Assembly (NCBI GenBank): GCA_027451445.1
Contig: DAIDJG010000562.1
Coordinates: forward strand, 1 to 37,789
DNA: 37,789 nucleotides
Direction: 5' to 3'
Origin: Singulisphaera sp.
Lineage (GTDB): Bacteria; Planctomycetota; Planctomycetia; Isosphaerales; Isosphaeraceae
Shown here: in pieces, positions 26,220 to 36,415 of the stretch
How the letters are laid out: each line of letters opens with the position of its first letter
Position numbering within the stretch: the stretch's first letter is position 1
Position numbers and translations under genes: made by a program
The notes under the pieces: generated by a model
Told to the model about the DNA's origin: nothing
What the model saw: only the letters and a program-made list of their open reading frames with translations
Databases searched by the model: none

Positions 26220-27869
26220 ATGGGCCGATTGGCATTGGCCGCCACCATGGTTCTGTCTTGCGCGTCCGTACTGGTCGCGCAAACGCCGACGCAACCTGTC
26301 GCGACCTGGCAGGCGTCAGGGACCAACGGTGCCGTGGTGGCCGGCGGAGAGGATGCCGTCGCCGCCGGAATGGAGGTTCTGCGTGAGGGCGGCAACGCGA
26401 TCGATGCCGCCGTCGCGACGATCCTGGCCCTCACGGTCACCGACTCCGGTTCGTGCTGCTTCGGGGGCGAGGTACCAATCCTGGTCTTCGACGCGCAGCG
26501 AGGGGTCGTCGAGGCACTCGCGGGCCAGGGAGCCGCGCCTCGGTTGGCAACCCAGACGTATTTCGAGCAGCGCGGGGGCATTCCGGGCCAAGGTATCGAG
26601 TCAGCCGCTGTGCCCGCGGTCCTTGATGTATGTGTCACCGCGCTCGATCGGTCCGGAACGCGCACCTTCGCTCAGGTCGCCGCACCGACGCTACGTTTGC
26701 TCGACAAGGGAAACAAAGACTGGCATCCCCAGCTTGCCCGGACGATCCGGCGTCTCAACGCCGCTGAGGCCGCTTCTCCGAGCGATCGCAAACGCGGTCT
26801 GCGGCTGGTCGCTGACGCATTCTATCGCGGACCGATCGCACACGAGATCGACCGTTGGTCGCGCGAACACGGCGGTCTGATTCGCTATGTGGATCTCGCA
26901 ACCCACGTGACGCGCGTCGAAGAACCGGTAGCTGCGAACTATCGCGGGATGTCGGTCGTCAAGTGCGGAGCCTGGACCCAAGGCCCTTACTTGCTGGAAG
27001 CACTCCAGATTCTTGAAGGATACGACCTGAAGTCCATGGGGCATAACCAGCCGGATGCGATTCATACGACCGTCGAAGCGCTGAAGTTGGCGCTCGCGGA
27101 TCGGGACACGTATCTGGCCGACCCACTCTATGCGGACGTGCCGCTGGCTGAATTGCTCGCACCTGCGTATGCGTCCAAACGGCGCTCACTCATCGATCCA
27201 CTTCACGCATCGCACGAGCAGCGGCCTGGCGACCCTCGGCACGACAAGGCGCTGCTGGAACAGGCGGATGCCCGCAAAGGCTCGGCGGGGCCTGCGAACG
27301 ATACGACCACGTGCCTGGTGGCCGACCGCTTCGGTAACGTGGTGGCGGCGACGCCGAGCGGTTGGTCGGGGGTGGTCGTGGGGACAACCGGTGTCTGGCT
27401 CGGCTCGCGTCTTCAAAGCTTTAACGCCTGGGCGGGGCACCCCAACTGCATCGAGCCGGGGAAACGTCCCAGAATTACGCTCACGCCAACCATCGTCCTT
27501 AGGGATGGCAAACCGGTGGCGGCAATCAGTGTCGCGGGCGGGGACAACCAGGACCAGATGACACTCCAACTCTTGCTCAACCGTTTCGACTTCGGCCTCG
27601 AGGCCGACGAAGCCGTCACGGCGCCTCGGTTTATGAGCGATCACTTCCTCGGATCGTTCCGCCAGACCCGGCCCAAGCTCGGTCAATTGCGGATCAACCC
27701 TCAGGTCGGGGGCGCGACGATGGCCGACCTCGCCGCGAGAGGCCACGACCTGGTAGTTAGCCCGACCCCTCTGGGGGCGGCCGCGACCATGATTACGATC
27801 GACCCTGCGACGAAGCGACTTCATGCGGCGGGCGACCCACGAGCCAAACGTCACGCCGGCGCGTACTGA
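26220..27869 (+). CDS. ggt: Exported gamma-glutamyltransferase family protein
   Basis: N-terminal-nucleophile enzyme that cleaves gamma-glutamyl bonds, as in glutathione, or a related acyl bond; made as one chain that cuts itself. It is 549 aa, the normal length, with a signal peptide (1-20). Early signs are 'EVLREGGNAIDAAVA' (about 52-66). The nucleophile Thr is expected at 362 in 'NDTTTCLVADRFGNVVAATPS', which would start the small subunit. 'KRPRITLTPTIVLRDGKP' and 'AGGDNQDQMTLQLLLN' complete the family pattern. The oxyanion region usually containing several Gly reads 'SGSCCFGGEV', a variation. AAGGAG lies 9 nt before the start, and a promoter is proposed upstream. The nitrilase gene follows 43 nt later, probably in the same unit. 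Confidence 0.88.
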   Translation: MGRLALAATMVLSCASVLVAQTPTQPVATWQASGTNGAVVAGGEDAVAAGMEVLREGGNAIDAAVATILALTVTDSGSCCFGGEVPILVFDAQRGVVEALAGQGAAPRLATQTYFEQRGGIPGQGIESAAVPAVLDVCVTALDRSGTRTFAQVAAPTLRLLDKGNKDWHPQLARTIRRLNAAEAASPSDRKRGLRLVADAFYRGPIAHEIDRWSREHGGLIRYVDLATHVTRVEEPVAANYRGMSVVKCGAWTQGPYLLEALQILEGYDLKSMGHNQPDAIHTTVEALKLALADRDTYLADPLYADVPLAELLAPAYASKRRSLIDPLHASHEQRPGDPRHDKALLEQADARKGSAGPANDTTTCLVADRFGNVVAATPSGWSGVVVGTTGVWLGSRLQSFNAWAGHPNCIEPGKRPRITLTPTIVLRDGKPVAAISVAGGDNQDQMTLQLLLNRFDFGLEADEAVTAPRFMSDHFLGSFRQTRPKLGQLRINPQVGGATMADLAARGHDLVVSPTPLGAAATMITIDPATKRLHAAGDPRAKRHAGAY

Positions 27870-27912
27870 ACCATTTGCCGAGAAACACCGCGTACTGGTG
27901 AAGGGGACCGTG

Positions 27913-29319
27913 ATGAGGGGACTTTCCTACCGGATCGCCGCATGCATCTTGGGGTGCTACCTCGGTTACGCCGGGGTTGCCTGGTCGGCCGAAAAACCAG
28001 CCGAACCGGAGAGTCCGCCGGAGGGATGGCGAATGAAGTCGCCCCGAGATGAGATCCGACCCAAGTTTACTCACGTCGCCGACGGTGGCCCGGAACATCG
28101 CGGCAGTCTCGTGATCGAGGCGGACCAGCGAGCGGGGTTGTTCGGCTGGTGGGAAAAGACGTTCAAGGTTGAGGGGGGCCGGACCTACAAGTTCTCGGTG
28201 AAGCGGAAGATCGAGGGGCTCGCCTTATCCCGACGCTCCGCCGTGGCGCGCGTCCTCTGGCACAACGACAAAGGGGGGCAAGTGCTCCACGACGAACCCT
28301 CGCGAGCCTCGTTCGTTCTTGGCAAGCGACCCGGTTCCGAACCGGAGTATCCCGCCGAGGGTGCGGTAGATGAGCAAGGCTGGGCAACCGTTAGCGGCAC
28401 ATACCACGTTCCCTCCGGAGCGTCGACGGCCGTCGTCGAGCTTGGCTACCAGTGGGAGCCGAACGGTCGCGTCGAATGGGCGGATGTCCGTTTGGACCCA
28501 ATTGAAGCGCCGACGCCGCGACGGGTGCGTCTCGCAACGATCCACTACATTCCGCACCGCGCGCCAACGTCGATGGACAACTGCCGCTCGTTCGACCCCA
28601 TGATCGAAGACTGCGTTCGGCAGAAGGCGGACCTGATCGTACTCCCCGAAACGCTCACGCACACGAATCGCGGACTGAGCTACGCCGAGTGTTCCGAGCC
28701 CGTTCCCGGTCCATCGACAGACTATTTCGGCTCGCTGGCCAGGAAGCACAATGTCTACATCGTGGCCGGGCTGATCGAGCGCGAGAAGCACCTGATCTAC
28801 AACGTGGCTGCCTTGGTCGGCCCGGAAGGGTTCATCGGGAAGTACAGGAAGGTGACTCTCCCTCGAGGTGAAATCGAAGGCGGAATCACCCCAGGGGATG
28901 ATTACCCTGTCTTCACGACCCGGTTCGGCCAGGTCGGGATGATGATCTGCTATGACGGGTTCTTCCCCGAGGTTGCGCGGGCGTTGAGCAATAACGGGGC
29001 AGAGGTCATCGCCTGGCCAGTCGCCGGTTGCAACCCACTACTCGCGGCGGCACGGGCCTGCGAGAACCATATTTATCTGGTGAGCAGCACCTACACCGAC
29101 GTTTCCCAAAACTGGACGATCTCGGCGATTTACGGTCAGGATGGCCGGCCGTTGGCCCAGGCGAAGGACTGGGGAACGGTCGCGGTGGCGGAGGTCGATC
29201 TCAGCGCGCCGCTTCACTGGCAAAACCTGGGGGACTTCAAAGCGCAGATTCCGCACCACCGGCCAGTCAGCCCACGCGAGCCATCCCCGAAATCTGCGGA
29301 CGTGTCGGAGAGCCGTTGA
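27913..29319 (+). CDS. Exported carbon-nitrogen hydrolase (nitrilase superfamily)
   Basis: Hydrolyses a C-N bond in an unknown amide or carbamoyl compound. ATG 27913 (468 aa) is chosen because AGGGG lies just upstream and the protein then begins with a signal peptide (about 1-26); a longer frame from 27823 would overlap the gamma-glutamyltransferase gene. Residues about 30-198 are a beta-rich domain with features of a carbohydrate-binding type fold ('GRTYKFSVKRKIEG', 'VELGYQWEPNGRVEWADVRL'). The nitrilase domain is about 204-440, with the catalytic Glu246 ('VLPETLTH'), Lys313 ('YRKVTLPRGE') and Cys346 ('MMICYDGFFPE') all present. It is the last gene of its strand, 19 nt from the convergent ATPase gene. 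Confidence 0.88.
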   Translation: MRGLSYRIAACILGCYLGYAGVAWSAEKPAEPESPPEGWRMKSPRDEIRPKFTHVADGGPEHRGSLVIEADQRAGLFGWWEKTFKVEGGRTYKFSVKRKIEGLALSRRSAVARVLWHNDKGGQVLHDEPSRASFVLGKRPGSEPEYPAEGAVDEQGWATVSGTYHVPSGASTAVVELGYQWEPNGRVEWADVRLDPIEAPTPRRVRLATIHYIPHRAPTSMDNCRSFDPMIEDCVRQKADLIVLPETLTHTNRGLSYAECSEPVPGPSTDYFGSLARKHNVYIVAGLIEREKHLIYNVAALVGPEGFIGKYRKVTLPRGEIEGGITPGDDYPVFTTRFGQVGMMICYDGFFPEVARALSNNGAEVIAWPVAGCNPLLAAARACENHIYLVSSTYTDVSQNWTISAIYGQDGRPLAQAKDWGTVAVAEVDLSAPLHWQNLGDFKAQIPHHRPVSPREPSPKSADVSESR

Positions 29320-29338
29320 TGGACCGAGGAACGGCGGG

Positions 29339-32300
29339 TTACGCTGCCGGCGTTGTTCGCCGCCTGAACTGTTCCCGAACCTCATCGAGCCATTCCTCGG
29401 GCGGAAACGCGTAGGGCCGGAACTTCTCGAGCCGATTCTGCTCCTCGCTCGCGAAGAACGCGCGATGAGGCCCGAGCTTGCTCGCGTGCGGCGCATCGAT
29501 GAGGTGGCCGGAGTCGGTGGGGCTCATTTGGAACAGTACACGCATCTCGAACTCGCGCAGCATCTGGTGATCGAGGACCCGGTTCAAATTGTTCACCGTA
29601 TCGCACCAGATGAGGACGTGAATACCTAGCCCTGGACCTTCGCGGAGGATTGTGGCGAATTGATCCGCCGGGCTCGCCTCTTCCCGGCGGGAGAAGCCGA
29701 AGTCGTTCTCGTTCCGACGGATCTCGCGGAACCGGGCCACGTCGTGTATGACCAGAAAGATCTCCGGTCCATCGGTCGTGTCGGGCTGCTGCCGGCGCTC
29801 GACTTCCGCCGCCACCGCAGAAAGGATTCGGGGCACGTCCCGCCAGTTGCCCACCTCGACGGGATGCGGCAACGTCCTGGCGACCTTGGCGAGGAACTCC
29901 GCATGGGGGTGATCTTCGGGCGTGCCGTCCAGGATCGCGAAACGAGCGCCCGAGCGGACCGTTTCCGATTCGGCCGGCAGGAACTGGGCCGCGAGGCTCA
30001 CGATCGACGCCGCCACGATGCCGATCGCAGCCTCTTCATTCTGTCCAACGATCAGGAGATGATTCCCTGCCTGCCTGCGGAAGAGCGCAGAGGTCGGGTC
30101 CTTGATCGCAACCGCTTCACCGAGCCATGCGTGAGCCGACCGCGGCGACGGGGGCCACTGTGGTGCTTCGAGCTGAGGCTTCAACAGAGCGCACCGTGAA
30201 AGGTCGGCCTCGGAGTCGCCCTCGAAGACGATCGGCACTCGCTTCAAAATCGGTTTGCGGATCTGGGCCAGTTCGCGGACCTGCGTCAGGTAATACTCCC
30301 GGCGCTCGTCGGAGAGCCAGACCACCTGAAAGAAGTGATTCCCCTCCGGCTGCCCGTTCGCATCGTTGTAAACCGCCTCGCCCGGCCGAGTCAGCATCTG
30401 CGCGGCTGGGTTCTGCTCGCTGAGGATCAGGTGCGCGTCCGCGTCGCTGCATTGGAGCGCAATCCGAACGGCCATCTGACCGAGTGTCGTGCGCGCGAGC
30501 GCGTACGCACCGCCGAGCGACTGGGAGCCAAGATGCACGTGCACACCGAACGCTCGGCCCTGGCGCACCAGGCGGTCGAGCAACTGTGCGGCCTCCTGCG
30601 CCACCTTGTCTTCCTCGACGAAGAACTCCTGAAACTCGTCGACGATGAGCAAGAGCCGAGGCAATGGCGGCGTGCCCGGCACGTTGCGATAACCATTCAC
30701 GTCCTGAACGCCAGCGTCCCGAAAACGATCGGCCCGTTCGCGCATCGCCCCGTCGAGCCGCTGGAGCACGCTAATCCCGAACTCCCGTTCGCTCTCAATC
30801 GCGACGACGCCAGCATGCGGCAGTTCGTGCGTGGCGTAGACCTTGAACTCGACGCCCTTCTTGAAGTCGATGAGATAAAGCTCGATCTCGTCCGGGCTGT
30901 AGTTCAAGATCAAGTTCGTAATCAGGGCATGCATCAACGTCGACTTGCCTGAGCCCGTTCGACCGGCGATGAGAACGTGCTGCGACGTGCCGTGCCCCAG
31001 AGTGATATTCTGGCGTTTCGTGGCCCCCGCCTTTCCGAGGGGGACATCGATCCCGGTCCGGCTGTCTTTCGTCCACCACGAATCTTTGGCGGGTGCGATA
31101 AACTCGAACGGCACTTCGACCCGCTTGGCGTCACGGGCGGCGGCACCTCCCCGGTGAATCAGACGGTTGGCGAATTCGGCGGACGGCATGGGGTCAAGCG
31201 CAAGGGGATACGCGCCGAAATCGGGATCTGTCCATACGAGCTGACCGCCGTCCCACGTAAGGTTGACGGCGTTTGCACGGAACTCATCGAGCGAGAAACC
31301 TTCGGGAATTGGGCGGTCGCGATCGACGGCGAGCAGGATCAAGACGCCGCATGGGATCCCATTGGCCGCGATGCTCGACAGCCGCGACAGCGCCTTTTCG
31401 TCGAAATGCGTGGGAAAATCCGCGATCACCAGGATCCGATAGGGCTCCGCAACTTCCTCGGCGACCGCGTTGTATTCCTCAATCGTCGCATATTCATTAC
31501 GCAGATACTTCTGGGTCACCTTCTCCATGTGTGCGGCGAGGTCGGTGAGACGCTCTTCGATCTGGCGGGCATCGGTCCACACCTGCTGCGTCACCAGGGC
31601 GGGGTCAAAGTCCGCAAGGTGCATGAACGCGCCAAAGTTGCGGCCGATCCCAACCGGGTCGATGATGGTAAACCGAACCTGTCCAGGAGGCAGGCTCGTC
31701 AAAAGCCTGAGCATCGTCGCCTGGAGGATCGTACTGGCTGCGGCTCGACCTGCGCTCGGGGTTTCGATGAGGAGGTTTGCGTGGGCGGGGAACGCATAAA
31801 GCGACGGAAAAGTGAAGCTGTTTGCGATTCCATCCCTCAGACGCGGGTCGGCTGGAACCCCGTCTGGCAACGTCGCGAGGTCCAGGTGCACGTCGCCAAA
31901 GCGAACAACGGGGGGGATCGCCTTGGGAAACGCTCGATCGTTCCAGGCCGGGTCGTCCCAACGGAGCCCAAGTGCATTGACGTCCTGGCCAATGGCGTCC
32001 AGATCCGCCTGGGCCCGTTCCATCCCTTGCCGCCAGCGCGTTGCCATCTCGCCCCAAGCGGTCTCGTATCGCACGCGGATTTCCTGTTTGGCCGCGTGGT
32101 ACTTCTCGTCGAGCCGTTTGATCTTGTCTTCGTAATGGGCCTGGATTTCCGCCTTGTGTCGATCGTGCACATCGATGGCTTCGCGCAGGTCGACCTGTTG
32201 CTTCGTCTGAATCTCCATCTGGCGCTGAGCGTAGACCTCATTGATGCGTCGCAAGCGCTCGTCGCGCTCGTTTTCGCCCGCGGTGATGGTCTGTGCGTTG

Positions 32301-33304
32301 CGCTCCTTCGCTTTCTGAAGATCGGCGTCGCGTTTTTGCGCCGCCTGGCTGCGCTGGGTCTTGAGCTGCTCGTCGGCCAGGCTTCGGTCGTGTGCTGCCA
32401 GCGCCTCGGCATCGACGAGCGACTGGAACAGCGGATAATACAGCCGGCTCACCTGCGTCTTGGCGAGCTTGTACATCTGAATCTTCGCCGCGAACCCAAG
32501 TGCGATCGCGACAATAAGGGCGCCGAGGATTGGGTAGTCGGCTCCGAACAGCAGCAGACTAGGGACCACAACCAATACCGCTATTACAATGAAGATCCAG
32601 AGGAACCTGCGCCCTTTGAGAGACTTTGGGATAAACAGTTCCTCGAGCAGCTTGAGCGAGGGTTCGAGCTTCGCGAGCCGGTCGATGAGCAAGCCGGTGA
32701 GATCGTCCGTCTTGTAAGTCTCGCGGGTCGGGGTTGTCGGTGGTTCGTCGAGACCGAACTTCGCGTAGTCGGCGAAGACCGCCGCGAGACGGTCGCGCAT
32801 CGATTCGACGATTTTCAGTGAGTTATTGATCGGCGCGATGCGCTCGGCATGCTTGTTGACGGCGGCTCGTTCGGTCAGTTCGAACAAGGCCGAGGCGTCC
32901 GCGCGGTCGCGCGCGAGCTGGTTTCTGGCCTTCTCACGTGTGCTGTCAAAGTCCGAGGCAATCTTGCGGCTCGCCCGGGCAAACTCCGACTTGGCATCCG
33001 CCTCGCCCGCGAGCGCCGCGTCAATGATGGAACGGCGCCGGGTTTCGTCGGCCTTTTGCTCACTTGCCTTGGCATGCTCGAACTTTTCGATACGGGACTT
33101 GCGCGCTTCGTCATATTGTCGGTCCGCGCTGGCGTCGGTCGTTGCGCGCACGCGCTCGACCTCGGCTTCCGCGGCGGCGCGTTCGGATACGAGCCGGAGG
33201 ATCTCACGCAAAGCTTCGCGTTCGCGCGCGATCAACCCTGGGCCATTGCCTGGGGAGGCATTTTCAACCAGATTAATCGGCGGGGTTTGCTGAAGAGTGC
33301 TCAC
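29339..33304 (-). CDS. Three-module FtsK/SpoIIIE-type ATPase with coiled coils, EssC/EccC-like
   Basis: Membrane motor of 1321 aa, probably driving export of proteins (or, less likely, DNA). Residues about 25-180 are coiled coil, followed by two membrane segments (about 234-254 and 257-275) and a second coiled coil (about 290-440). Three FtsK-like modules follow. Module 1 (about 460-715) lacks a real Walker A (TPSAGRAAAST, 515-525) but keeps 'ILVIADF'. Module 2 (about 750-1010) is intact: GRTGSGKST (781-789, Lys787) and LLLIVDEF (Asp889, Glu890). Module 3 (about 1060-1316) is degenerate ('IVGQNEEAAIG' and 'FLVIHDVARF'). Two membrane segments plus three tandem modules is the type VII secretion motor layout. 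The start is GTG 33304, overlapping the stop of the 79-aa gene as GTGA, so the two are coupled. Confidence 0.85.
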   Translation of the reverse strand: MSTLQQTPPINLVENASPGNGPGLIAREREALREILRLVSERAAAEAEVERVRATTDASADRQYDEARKSRIEKFEHAKASEQKADETRRRSIIDAALAGEADAKSEFARASRKIASDFDSTREKARNQLARDRADASALFELTERAAVNKHAERIAPINNSLKIVESMRDRLAAVFADYAKFGLDEPPTTPTRETYKTDDLTGLLIDRLAKLEPSLKLLEELFIPKSLKGRRFLWIFIVIAVLVVVPSLLLFGADYPILGALIVAIALGFAAKIQMYKLAKTQVSRLYYPLFQSLVDAEALAAHDRSLADEQLKTQRSQAAQKRDADLQKAKERNAQTITAGENERDERLRRINEVYAQRQMEIQTKQQVDLREAIDVHDRHKAEIQAHYEDKIKRLDEKYHAAKQEIRVRYETAWGEMATRWRQGMERAQADLDAIGQDVNALGLRWDDPAWNDRAFPKAIPPVVRFGDVHLDLATLPDGVPADPRLRDGIANSFTFPSLYAFPAHANLLIETPSAGRAAASTILQATMLRLLTSLPPGQVRFTIIDPVGIGRNFGAFMHLADFDPALVTQQVWTDARQIEERLTDLAAHMEKVTQKYLRNEYATIEEYNAVAEEVAEPYRILVIADFPTHFDEKALSRLSSIAANGIPCGVLILLAVDRDRPIPEGFSLDEFRANAVNLTWDGGQLVWTDPDFGAYPLALDPMPSAEFANRLIHRGGAAARDAKRVEVPFEFIAPAKDSWWTKDSRTGIDVPLGKAGATKRQNITLGHGTSQHVLIAGRTGSGKSTLMHALITNLILNYSPDEIELYLIDFKKGVEFKVYATHELPHAGVVAIESEREFGISVLQRLDGAMRERADRFRDAGVQDVNGYRNVPGTPPLPRLLLIVDEFQEFFVEEDKVAQEAAQLLDRLVRQGRAFGVHVHLGSQSLGGAYALARTTLGQMAVRIALQCSDADAHLILSEQNPAAQMLTRPGEAVYNDANGQPEGNHFFQVVWLSDERREYYLTQVRELAQIRKPILKRVPIVFEGDSEADLSRCALLKPQLEAPQWPPSPRSAHAWLGEAVAIKDPTSALFRRQAGNHLLIVGQNEEAAIGIVAASIVSLAAQFLPAESETVRSGARFAILDGTPEDHPHAEFLAKVARTLPHPVEVGNWRDVPRILSAVAAEVERRQQPDTTDGPEIFLVIHDVARFREIRRNENDFGFSRREEASPADQFATILREGPGLGIHVLIWCDTVNNLNRVLDHQMLREFEMRVLFQMSPTDSGHLIDAPHASKLGPHRAFFASEEQNRLEKFRPYAFPPEEWLDEVREQFRRRTTPAA

Positions 33305-33540
33305 AGGGTCGGGCTCCGGTCAGAGCAATCGCGGCGGACCTGATCGAGCACTTCGGCGAGCTTGAACATGCCGATGACCGCGGCGTCAATCGCCGGGTCG
33401 AGAGGCGCGAGGTAGCGTTCCTCAAACCGGTGCCGGACCTTATCGTTCCACGTTGCCTCAGTGATCAACCATTGGTCTTTGAGGGTTTTGATTGCGTGTT
33501 TCAGTCGTGTCGTGCCAGCAACCACGTTTGCGTTTGCCAT
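33301..33540 (-). CDS. Small helical protein, WXG100-like candidate
   Basis: A 79-aa protein without signal peptide or Cys-rich motif; function unknown. It reads as two helices (about 5-29 and 33-70) joined by Trp31-Asn-Asp33, with Phe39 and Tyr43 after the turn ('WNDKVRHRFEERY'). That resembles the W-x-G turn followed by an aromatic residue in WXG100 proteins, with Asp in place of Gly; WXG100 proteins are about 100 aa, so this is short. Its position directly before, and translationally coupled to, an EssC/EccC-like ATPase is where a type VII substrate would lie. Start ATG 33540 has AAGG 9 nt upstream. The assignment to the WXG100 group is inference. Confidence 0.7.
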   Translation of the reverse strand: MANANVVAGTTRLKHAIKTLKDQWLITEATWNDKVRHRFEERYLAPLDPAIDAAVIGMFKLAEVLDQVRRDCSDRSPTL

Positions 33541-33608
33541 CGTTCATTGCCTTGCTCGAGGAGCGTATGACCACAGACATGTTCCCGCATACAACCGAGG
33601 GAAAAGAG

Positions 33609-34280
33609 TCAGGTCGGCGGCTCGGTCGCGTCTGGCTCGCCGGGCGGTTCGACGAAATCGACCGTTACCTCCGCGGAGTGCGCTCCCGACTCAGACGGCG
33701 TCGTAGCACTTTCCGGAGGTTCGGTTGTCGTTGACGAGGGGCCCAGGATCGTGTCGGCGATGGCATCGAACGGCGACACGCCGCCACTCCCGGACGGCGG
33801 CGCCACCCGTAGATAAGCCTCCAAAGCTTCGATCATCCGTTCGAGCGCGTACATCGCGCGCGGGACATCCCCGCTCGCCAGGTCTTTGATGCGACGGATG
33901 CTACCGTGGTACTCCAGCACGACCTGCTGGAGCGCGTGTTCCCATTTCTTCACCAACGCGGCGCGCATCTCAGCGTCTTGCAGGCTGGCCTCGGCCCTCC
34001 GTAACAGTTCCTTCTGTTCGGACATTGCGGGCGTGTAATCAGCCGTCTTGGCAAGCTTGCGCCGAAAGACTTCCGCTTTCGCCTGGGCGACCATCTCCCG
34101 CCGGCGCTTGAGTTGGTCTTGCCAGTAGGCGCGGCGGTCGTGCTGAAGCCACTGCAACGTCCTCTTCGCCTCCATATCCACGGCGCCCAGGGCGCCCAGC
34201 GATTCCTCGCCGAACAGCGCCAGGGCCACTCGAAACTGCTTGAGCGCATCGATCGAGTAAACAGAGGCCTGATCGCTCAT
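33609..34280 (-). CDS. Helical coiled-coil protein with Pro/Thr/Glu-rich tail
   Basis: A 223-aa protein of unknown function, first gene of the ATPase unit. Residues 8-158 are predicted almost wholly helical, with heptad-like stretches ('RRREMVAQAKAEVFRRKL', 'ELLRRAEASLQDAEMRAALV') and Trp44, Trp53 and Trp113. Residues about 160-223 are a low-complexity acidic tail rich in Pro, Thr, Ser and Glu. No signal peptide or membrane segment is seen. The long helical N-terminus with a disordered tail resembles large type VII substrates or their partners (LXG/WXG-type), but no diagnostic motif proves it. The 79-aa gene follows after 68 nt. The start ATG 34280 has no strong ribosome site. Confidence 0.75.
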   Translation of the reverse strand: MSDQASVYSIDALKQFRVALALFGEESLGALGAVDMEAKRTLQWLQHDRRAYWQDQLKRRREMVAQAKAEVFRRKLAKTADYTPAMSEQKELLRRAEASLQDAEMRAALVKKWEHALQQVVLEYHGSIRRIKDLASGDVPRAMYALERMIEALEAYLRVAPPSGSGGVSPFDAIADTILGPSSTTTEPPESATTPSESGAHSAEVTVDFVEPPGEPDATEPPT

Positions 34281-34525: not shown

Positions 34526-35950
34526 TCATCGCGCTCCCTGAGATCCAAGCAAAGCCTCACGAATCGCGCGTTTCATTCGTGCTTCCGACCCTGGGGCAAC
34601 CCAGCACCAGTCGCTGAGATTGGTGTCGTGCTCCTCAAAATGTTTGTCGGTCGGGATGTAACCCGTCGCGCTCTCACCGTACCCCATCGTCAAGACGAAT
34701 TTCTCGGGCCGAACCTGCTGGGCGGCCAGTTGATACTCCACGTACGACTCTCCGGGAAGGAGGAGAATCTGAGCGTTGCCGAGGTCGAGCACGGGAACGT
34801 CGATCGGCGAGCCCGCGGCAACCCGCCGGTGCCAGCTCAAGCCGAGCGCAGCGAGGCACTGGCCAAACGGTTTCGGATCTGTGGTCAGGCGTTTTTGAAG
34901 ATCCTCGACAGAGTATCCGTCAGTCGTTCGCGGCTCCAGTCGGAGCGGGATGGTTCGATAGTCAATGTCACTCAACGGGGTGCGAACTGTTGCCTTCCAC
35001 GCCGCAGCCATCGCCGTGTAGATGCGGTCGGCAAGAACTTGGCGGTTTGCGGAATCGCCGTCGTTGTACTTGCCGGCAGTTACGTTGCCGCTGCAGCCAG
35101 AGGTGTAAATCTGAAAGACTCCCGGCTCATCCTCCTGGCGACGCCGTCGCGCCTGGCCAATGAAGTCGGCCGAGACACCTCCTCGGCCGTAGTAGCTCAT
35201 CGGGTGCGTCGCGTAGCAACTGAGCGCGAGCACCGGCCGGTCTTCATACCAGAAGCTGAGTGTTTTGAGCCAGGGGTCGATCACACCCTCCGGCTGGTCG
35301 CGGATGGCAGGATCTCGGGTAGCGCTCATGCGGTTGAACGCAGGCTTACCGTCCGGCGCCACATAACGTCGGTTCGACGCGACTTTATCGACCTTGGCCT
35401 GACCAACACCGTAGTGGGTAATGGGACCAGCCTGCCCCAGCGATGACCGCACTGCCTTGGCGACGTTTTGGACAGCTCGCTCGTGGAACGCAAGGTCGCA
35501 GACACTTCCCGAGGCGCGGTGCTCGTCCAGAATGCGCTGCGCTGTAAGATCCGCGATCGGCGTGTCATGCTGATGGAGGCTTGTGACGATGACACGCGCT
35601 GGGTCGGTCCCCGCCGCTTCGGCGAGAACGTTTCTCCAACGTTCGTAAGCGTCATTGCGGATCTCGCACCAATCGATCGCCGCAAGTACGATGGGCTTGC
35701 CGGCTCCGAGCAGCACGAACCCGCGGGCGAACAGAGGATCGACGATCTTCTGCGCCGGTGCGATCCCTCCCCCCATCAGAGCATGTCCCAACGGCGGACT
35801 GACTTCAGCCGAGAAGGTCGTCAGTCGGTAGGAGCGGTCAAGCGGAGCACCCCAAGCGTTCCGTGCACCCAAGAAGGTGGCGATTGCGCCCAGGAATTGA
35901 CGGCGGTCCACGGCCTGAGTCCGTTCTCGACTTGCTGTGATGTCAGTCAT
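34526..35950 (-). CDS. Tat-exported neutral ceramidase-like protein
   Basis: A 474-aa exported protein resembling the N-terminal catalytic domain of neutral/alkaline ceramidases, amide hydrolases of sphingolipid-type substrates. ATG 35950 is preferred to a GTG at 35971. A Tat-type signal (DRRQFLGA, residues 15-22) leads. Family-like segments are 'FSAEVSPPLGHALMG', 'VIVTSLHQHDTP', 'SGCSGNVTAGKYND' and 'ILLLPGESYVEYQLAAQ'. The protein ends before the C-terminal beta domain of full ceramidases. Many planctomycete proteins of this kind have unknown substrates, so the name marks the fold rather than the reaction. It lies alone between the ATPase unit and the porin gene. Confidence 0.7.
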   Translation of the reverse strand: MTDITASRERTQAVDRRQFLGAIATFLGARNAWGAPLDRSYRLTTFSAEVSPPLGHALMGGGIAPAQKIVDPLFARGFVLLGAGKPIVLAAIDWCEIRNDAYERWRNVLAEAAGTDPARVIVTSLHQHDTPIADLTAQRILDEHRASGSVCDLAFHERAVQNVAKAVRSSLGQAGPITHYGVGQAKVDKVASNRRYVAPDGKPAFNRMSATRDPAIRDQPEGVIDPWLKTLSFWYEDRPVLALSCYATHPMSYYGRGGVSADFIGQARRRRQEDEPGVFQIYTSGCSGNVTAGKYNDGDSANRQVLADRIYTAMAAAWKATVRTPLSDIDYRTIPLRLEPRTTDGYSVEDLQKRLTTDPKPFGQCLAALGLSWHRRVAAGSPIDVPVLDLGNAQILLLPGESYVEYQLAAQQVRPEKFVLTMGYGESATGYIPTDKHFEEHDTNLSDWCWVAPGSEARMKRAIREALLGSQGAR

Positions 35951-36415
35951 GGTCAGCTTTTCCCTCGGCACGAACGAGCGGCCCGATCATGGTCTCCAAT
36001 GCATCATGCGACAGATGGTAACACGAAATACGCGGCGGTCCGAGGAGCGCGCACGTCTGACACGAGGATACCGATCCGCTCGCCTGCTCGCAGCTTGGTC
36101 CCTCCTCGCTCTCGGATTGAAAAGACGACACTCCTCGCTCGTCACCACCACGGCCTTGCGGACGAGTGGCCTGGGTGGCCGGGGCAAAGCCCGCGCAGCG
36201 GGCGTGCCGCGGAGACGCGAACCTCCGGGGCACGCTCGCCCTGCGGGCTGACTTTTCCCCGGCCACCCCGGGTCCCAAACCATCGACCCGAGGTGGTGTT
36301 CGGCGAGAAGTCTCGCAAATCCTCTGAGATTATGGGCTTGCGAGTATCCCGTTCAAACGCACTCCAGCCGCCTGATTGGATTTCGCGAGTCATCCGCCTG
36401 TGCTTCGGTCACCAC
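35951..36415. other. Gene-free stretch with large palindrome
   Basis: About 465 bp between the porin and the ceramidase-like gene. The only clear structure is the GC-rich imperfect palindrome at 36171-36272, listed separately. Open frames crossing the region on either strand are shadows of the neighbouring genes or lack any start signal. No RNA gene was recognised. Confidence 0.5.
36171..36272. repeat. Large GC-rich nested palindrome, REP-like
   Basis: Left arm 36171-36214 and right arm 36222-36272 are complementary over most of their length with small gaps: GGTGGCCGGGG pairs perfectly, as do GCGTGCC and CGGAG, around a loop of about 7 nt. Each arm also holds its own small hairpin (GCCCGC-gca-GCGGGC on the left, GCCC-tgc-GGGC on the right), so it could extrude as a cross. 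It starts about 143 nt downstream of the porin stop. The form is that of a dispersed intergenic repeat, and it may also end transcription. Confidence 0.7.

Follow-up and report, generated by a model that had tools for sequence, protein, structure and literature searches.

Type VII secretion is usually discussed as a Gram-positive and mycobacterial trait. Recently, a WXG100/FtsK module was described in extended Type III-A CoCoNuT operons and TerY-P islands, comprising an EssC-like ATPase that is active in its central domain only and has a long N-terminal coiled coil but no membrane helices, two WXG100 proteins, one of them without WxG, and a protein that joins a coiled coil to a D-ExK nuclease (Bell et al., 2024; PMC11090510). 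Stand-alone occurrence of the module is credited there to earlier work (Anantharaman, 2012, as cited in PMC11090510). A table footnote (number 6) in Zhang et al. (2012; PMC3482391) places planctomycetes among the lineages with solo WXG proteins, and passages of the same paper refer, under the label 'mobile versions of T7SS', to a distinct YueA-like ATPase whose three HerA/FtsK domains are active in the middle one alone. In Helicobacter pylori, WxG plus FtsK (HP0062/HP0066 as paralogs) has been treated as a minimal type VII set in a pan-genome study (PMC4978471). A literature search found no paper on a planctomycete system itself.

The initial annotation of the locus reported here spoke of an undescribed planctomycete export system. 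This wording has to be given up: the module is described in Zhang et al. (2012) and Bell et al. (2024), it also occurs outside planctomycetes, and export is something that we infer. The operon represents the stand-alone WXG100/FtsK module, a kind barely characterised to date, in a planctomycete form with a membrane anchor. What is new is the membrane-anchored motor, the coiled-coil protein without a nuclease and the phylum-wide linkage of four genes. The solo-WXG system of Zhang et al. (2012) agrees with it in the naming of planctomycetes, the three HerA/FtsK domains, the activity of the middle one alone and the solo WXG protein; the passages concerned, as far as they go, do not mention S79, H223, the membrane segments, the paralogy or the co-occurrence described below.

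The window, the whole stretch of 37,789 nucleotides that was analysed, is one contig (C562) of a Singulisphaera genome of 10.9 Mb in 622 contigs, whose nearest named relatives among the search matches are Isosphaeraceae. Three genes on the minus strand encode a three-module FtsK/EccC-like ATPase of 1321 aa with a GTG start (29339-33304), a 79-aa WXG100-like helical hairpin, S79 (33301-33540), and a 223-aa protein, H223 (33609-34280). The ATPase and S79 genes overlap by 4 bases, GTGA, and the positions, sizes, shared strand and overlap initially given were all reproduced. The three families are conserved in tens of genomes, with S79 homologs 23-81% identical, indicating more than chance; across Planctomycetota the trio is kept together, and the planctomycete neighbourhoods contain no conserved fifth gene. 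Upstream of the operon on the same strand lies a 481-aa gene (34526-35971) without a Pfam match at E 1. An apparent relative is found in Tautonia (L140:1-1281) about 3 kb from S79/H223, possibly by chance.

The ATPase begins with a coiled coil (residues about 25-230), followed by a membrane hairpin recognised by hydropathy (residues 234-252 and 259-277) and a second coiled coil (residues about 290-440). A family profile then delimits exactly three FtsK-like modules, of which module 1 (residues 506-684) and module 3 (residues 1056-1293) are degenerate, and only module 2 (residues 751-987) is active, with Walker A GRTGSGKST and Walker B LLLIVDEF. Hence the two membrane segments and three tandem modules first noted from the sequence hold. 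Across 77 three-module relatives, Walker A was counted 0, 76 and 0 times in modules 1, 2 and 3, respectively, and most planctomycete ATPases carry two membrane segments at about residues 200-290, close to the position of the EssC segment. The long N-terminal coiled coil and the EssC-like arrangement of three modules with the middle one alone active are shared with the CoCoNuT/TerY-P module, whereas the two membrane segments set the planctomycete ATPase apart from it (PMC11090510). Module 1 was also considered as a homolog of the region preceding D1 in EccC/EssC; profile comparison gave no support. Antisense to the ATPase gene runs an open frame of 614 codons (30977-32821), probably a by-product of high-GC codon use.

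For S79, structure prediction returned a confident hairpin (pLDDT 92; helices 2-27, 34-44 and 47-74) whose turn holds WND (residues 31-33), and W31 and D33 are invariant among 58 homologs, in agreement with the W-x-D hairpin proposed at the outset. In a Foldseek search with this model the best 8 rows were all WXG100 proteins, 6 of them Bacillus anthracis EsxB; among its best structural neighbours EsxB and HP0062 of H. pylori predominate. For hairpins this short, E-values and Z-scores are weak when taken alone. The window S79 has no Pfam match and does not reach the WXG100 (PF06013) gathering score. WXG100 is the Pfam family matched by most members (13/58 at E 1 or better, best 8.8e-4; the next family has 3). 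When the S79 profile was run over all reading frames, a second small protein, W90, supplied 42 of the 50 non-S79 matches, including the best 29. Against PDB sequences the profile reached EsxA only at E 0.5. Since direct profile-profile comparison of S79 with W90 is weak (13.6% probability), the evidence for the WXG link comes from rank enrichment, from Pfam counts and from the fold, which together support S79 as a WXG-like hairpin.

W90 is a 90-aa protein encoded near H223 in 45 of the loci fetched, and it passes the Pfam WXG100 cut-off, with 32/32 family members matching WXG100. In the PDB it comes closest to HP0062 (8e-11), followed by B. anthracis EsxB (2e-9), so that a true WXG100 gene belonging to the system is supported. 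The order W90-H223-S79 is kept in 44/45 planctomycete loci, in Chloroflexota too, and by position on a Caballeronia plasmid. The window genome contains a sister operon, on contig C113, that encodes W90, H223 and S79 together with an ATPase sharing 49% identity with that of the window; its W90 is the only WXG100 protein above the cut-off in the genome. W90 was never found beside a window-type operon in 15 loci with the small genes (the named ones Isosphaeraceae), and six further Isosphaeraceae genomes have two H223 genes and one W90. The window operon is a paralog without its own WXG100 gene: a WXG100 gene accompanies the motor in the sister operon and the 45 related loci, while the window operon has the divergent S79 only. 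A 98%-complete relative (G288) carries the window type and lacks W90, suggesting that the window type may work without W90, unless the gene falls in an assembly gap. A phage search for W90 gave no match. At the family level, a true WXG100 protein (W90) with a WXG-like one without WxG (S79) is again what Bell et al. (2024) described for the CoCoNuT/TerY-P module. Of the H. pylori pair, HP0062 is the PDB protein closest to W90 and has WRD in its bend and an FtsK/SpoIIIE neighbour, but no W90 stands beside the window operon.

H223 was predicted to form two very long antiparallel helices (residues 8-76 and 87-158) followed by a low-confidence tail in which 11 of 61 residues are D/E and none is K/R, which bears out the initial picture of a helical protein with a disordered acidic tail. 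A fold search with H223 returned generic coiled coils only, and therefore no WXG, LXG or PPE assignment is possible. Planctomycete H223 proteins have short, low-complexity tails and no nuclease domain; a nuclease-like C-terminal domain occurs on the corresponding protein in Chloroflexota and Caballeronia only. The CoCoNuT/TerY-P module also has one coiled-coil protein, with a comparable gene order in the Caballeronia copy, but in that module it is the D-ExK nuclease fusion, where planctomycetes have an acidic or low-complexity tail. A plasmid search for H223 gave no match. H223 was also considered as a polymorphic effector family in planctomycetes and rejected: it is present in one copy per operon and is not polymorphic, unlike an effector family. 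In 7/61 members a cysteine pair spans the interhelical turn (about residues 72-90), and the Deinococcus and Caballeronia coiled-coil proteins likewise have such a pair, which could be a disulfide or a metal site.

Of 292 genomes of the phylum, 49 were positive for each of W90, the ATPase, H223 and S79, and 47 for all four, with partial sets in three genomes (G046, G161 and G288). Pairwise overlap of the families has p about 8e-53, a statistic that ignores shared ancestry. The positive genomes represent no fewer than 15 family-level groups, and in some families positive and negative genomes occur side by side. The genes need not be adjacent: all four are present at 0.23, 0.71, 1.94 and 2.66 Mb on one complete chromosome (G092) and at 2.50, 4.30 and 5.92 Mb on another (G022). 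The ATPases of L042, L057, L058, L063, L082 and L085 at first seemed orphans, but W90 or H223, and in most cases the two of them, are encoded elsewhere in the respective genomes; neither gene is present in the L061 and L084 genomes. The four families form one linked system.

Outside the phylum, the module is present in Chloroflexota, Deinococcus and Caballeronia and, by homology, in H. pylori. In Thermoflexales (L083, Chloroflexota) the order W90-H223-S79-ATPase is kept, a WD40 propeller replaces the membrane part of the ATPase, and H223 combines a membrane segment with a nuclease-like domain (GFDRV..ESK..SPEW) that has no Pfam or NCBIfam match and recurs in another H223 encoded by this genome. 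Two Chloroflexota H223 paralogs (L083:716-1897 and L138:15-1214) share this C-terminal D...(E)xK...SPEW domain, which looks like a PD-(D/E)xK nuclease. Another Chloroflexota ATPase (L084:25-6079) has WD40 repeats ahead of its three FtsK modules and is directly followed by SbcD/Mre11-like and SbcC/Rad50-like genes. A Deinococcus plasmid carries genes for a three-module ATPase of 947 aa, for two proteins that match WXG100 weakly and, separately, for a coiled-coil membrane protein. On the Caballeronia plasmid the order is VWA, WXG100 (W90 profile match 1e-27), a 436-aa coiled coil ending in a D...ExK-like domain, a 76-aa protein and a three-module ATPase, then a CARF-PD-(D/E)xK nuclease (PADLOC 9e-271), VWA, PP2C, kinase and helicase genes. 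No membrane segment is predicted for any core gene on the Caballeronia plasmid, and the segment of the Chloroflexota and Deinococcus systems lies in a protein other than the ATPase, indicating that the motor is not membrane-embedded in every form of the module.

The nuclease-like domains in these relatives, the one defence-type operon and the moving or missing membrane segment make the main rival explanation a membrane-tethered, non-secretory cassette for conflict or nucleic-acid handling, in which the WXG hairpins and the coiled coil would regulate or sense, and the original effector would be a coiled-coil nuclease that planctomycetes have lost or replaced by a tail. The Caballeronia operon, with its nuclease, kinase, PP2C, two VWA genes and helicase, corresponds to the TerY-P/CoCoNuT setting (PMC11090510), and the SbcD/SbcC-like neighbours of the Chloroflexota WD40-FtsK homolog point the same way. 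The planctomycete copies themselves fit less well, as they are single-copy, with dispersed genes in some genomes, lack conserved neighbours of the defence or TerY-P type (no VWA, kinase, phosphatase or CoCoNuT genes recur near them) and combine a nuclease-free H223 with a hairpin-bearing motor; unlike the CoCoNuT/TerY-P module, this form has been retained across the family-level groups counted above. A nuclease behind a coiled coil would fit an exported toxin, too. We consider this explanation rather unlikely for the planctomycete system, while taking it more seriously than any other rival.

Sequence comparison of the motor bears on a second alternative, in which the ATPase would be a dedicated DNA translocase (FtsK/SpoIIIE/HerA kind) and its small neighbours would be unrelated accessory factors. 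The window ATPase scored 115.6 bits against NCBIfam EccCa, 113.6 against EssC, 99.5 against EccCb and 21 against FtsK, missing the curated cut-offs widely (509 bits for EccCa and 778 for EssC). Its best PDB sequence match is TcEccC (9e-36), then EccC5 (2e-28) and YukB, with FtsK at 1e-9. In profile comparisons against small reference sets (9 type VII and 5 FtsK sequences), module 2 matched type VII D1 at 3e-36 and FtsK at 2e-25, and module 3 matched type VII D2 at 1e-13 and FtsK at 0.004. By score, modules 2 and 3 are therefore favoured as closer to type VII D1 and D2 than to FtsK. The DNA translocase explanation can point to the generic FtsK_SpoIIIE Pfam match and to a 59-module tree, the phylogenetic check named at the outset, in which module 2, type VII D1 and FtsK are three separate groups of unsettled branching order (module 2 with D1, AU p 0.287; with FtsK, support 60/25). 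The scores, set beside this tree, favour a type VII-like working of the motor and leave identity with EccC/EssC unestablished. A translocase like FtsK/SpoIIIE has a single motor domain followed by gamma, whereas the window ATPase has three tandem modules, the third D2-like, and no Pfam match to the gamma domain; the strict co-occurrence with WXG100 proteins and the presence in the window genome of a separate FtsK-like protein (L003), which groups with FtsK in the module tree, also speak against it. A DNA translocase is accordingly improbable. Like EccC/EssC (T7SSa/T7SSb) and TsxC (T7SSc-j; PMC11217815), the window operon has a membrane-anchored motor with a D1-like active and then a D2-like module, and the system a WXG100 partner; those motors differ in having several Walker A modules, where the window ATPase has one in the middle of three, and no phylum-specific partners are found here.

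Nine genomes were searched for the partner genes EccB, EccD, YukC and YukD. No homolog of EccB, EccD or YukC/EssB was found above cut-off, so that of the initial statement that EccB-, EccD-, EccE- and EsaA-like genes are lacking, the part on EccB and EccD is now extended to nine genomes. The single YukD match in the window genome (C240:30387-30617) was rejected as a type VII partner: it sits in an operon of YukD/ubiquitin-like, E2-like, ThiF/E1-like and JAB-domain genes (G000:C240, about 26745-30674; L107:4746-8675), which explains the match. Similar operons occur in L108 and L109. The C-terminal export signal YxxxD/E was found in 0/45 W90 and 2/64 S79 sequences. A conventional T7SS with EccB/EccD/EssB-type partners elsewhere in the genome, for which it counts that scattered genes show partners need not adjoin, is already largely refuted by these absences and the widely missed EccC/EssC cut-offs, and we think it very improbable indeed.

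The type VII-like character originally proposed gains from motor scores that favour EccC/EssC over FtsK, the WXG-like S79 and the genuine WXG100 gene of the system. Our preferred reading, held with about as much doubt as conviction, is a minimal type VII-like inner-membrane translocase acting on the WXG hairpins and on H223, with export as its most likely purpose. The ATPase would assemble into a hexamer that its two-helix hairpin anchors in the membrane, and the degenerate modules 1 and 3 may have docking or regulatory roles around the single hydrolysing module. S79 and W90, the latter encoded by the sister operon, would bind the ATPase modules as partner, targeting or regulatory subunits, in the manner of type VII WXG100 dimers. 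The rod-like coiled coil of H223 with its flexible acidic tail may make it a dedicated partner or a cargo carrier. Export of a putative cargo is likely; we know of no route across the outer membrane for the module.

As to its history, it is possible, though we put it forward tentatively, that planctomycetes domesticated a conflict module of the mobile WXG100/FtsK kind and made of it a core, four-protein minimal exporter, with a hairpin-anchored motor and an acidic tail in place of the nuclease in a two-membrane phylum, and that a duplication in Isosphaeraceae left the window copy to S79 without a WXG100 gene of its own. The module occurs in cultured species, among them Singulisphaera acidiphila, Paludisphaera soli and Limnoglobus roseus, which makes these proposals testable. 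The four-gene, one-motor version found across Planctomycetota would be the smallest set in nature with which to ask how a type VII motor and a WXG100 hairpin act by themselves, and it would link secretion motors to the WXG100/FtsK cassettes of defence islands.
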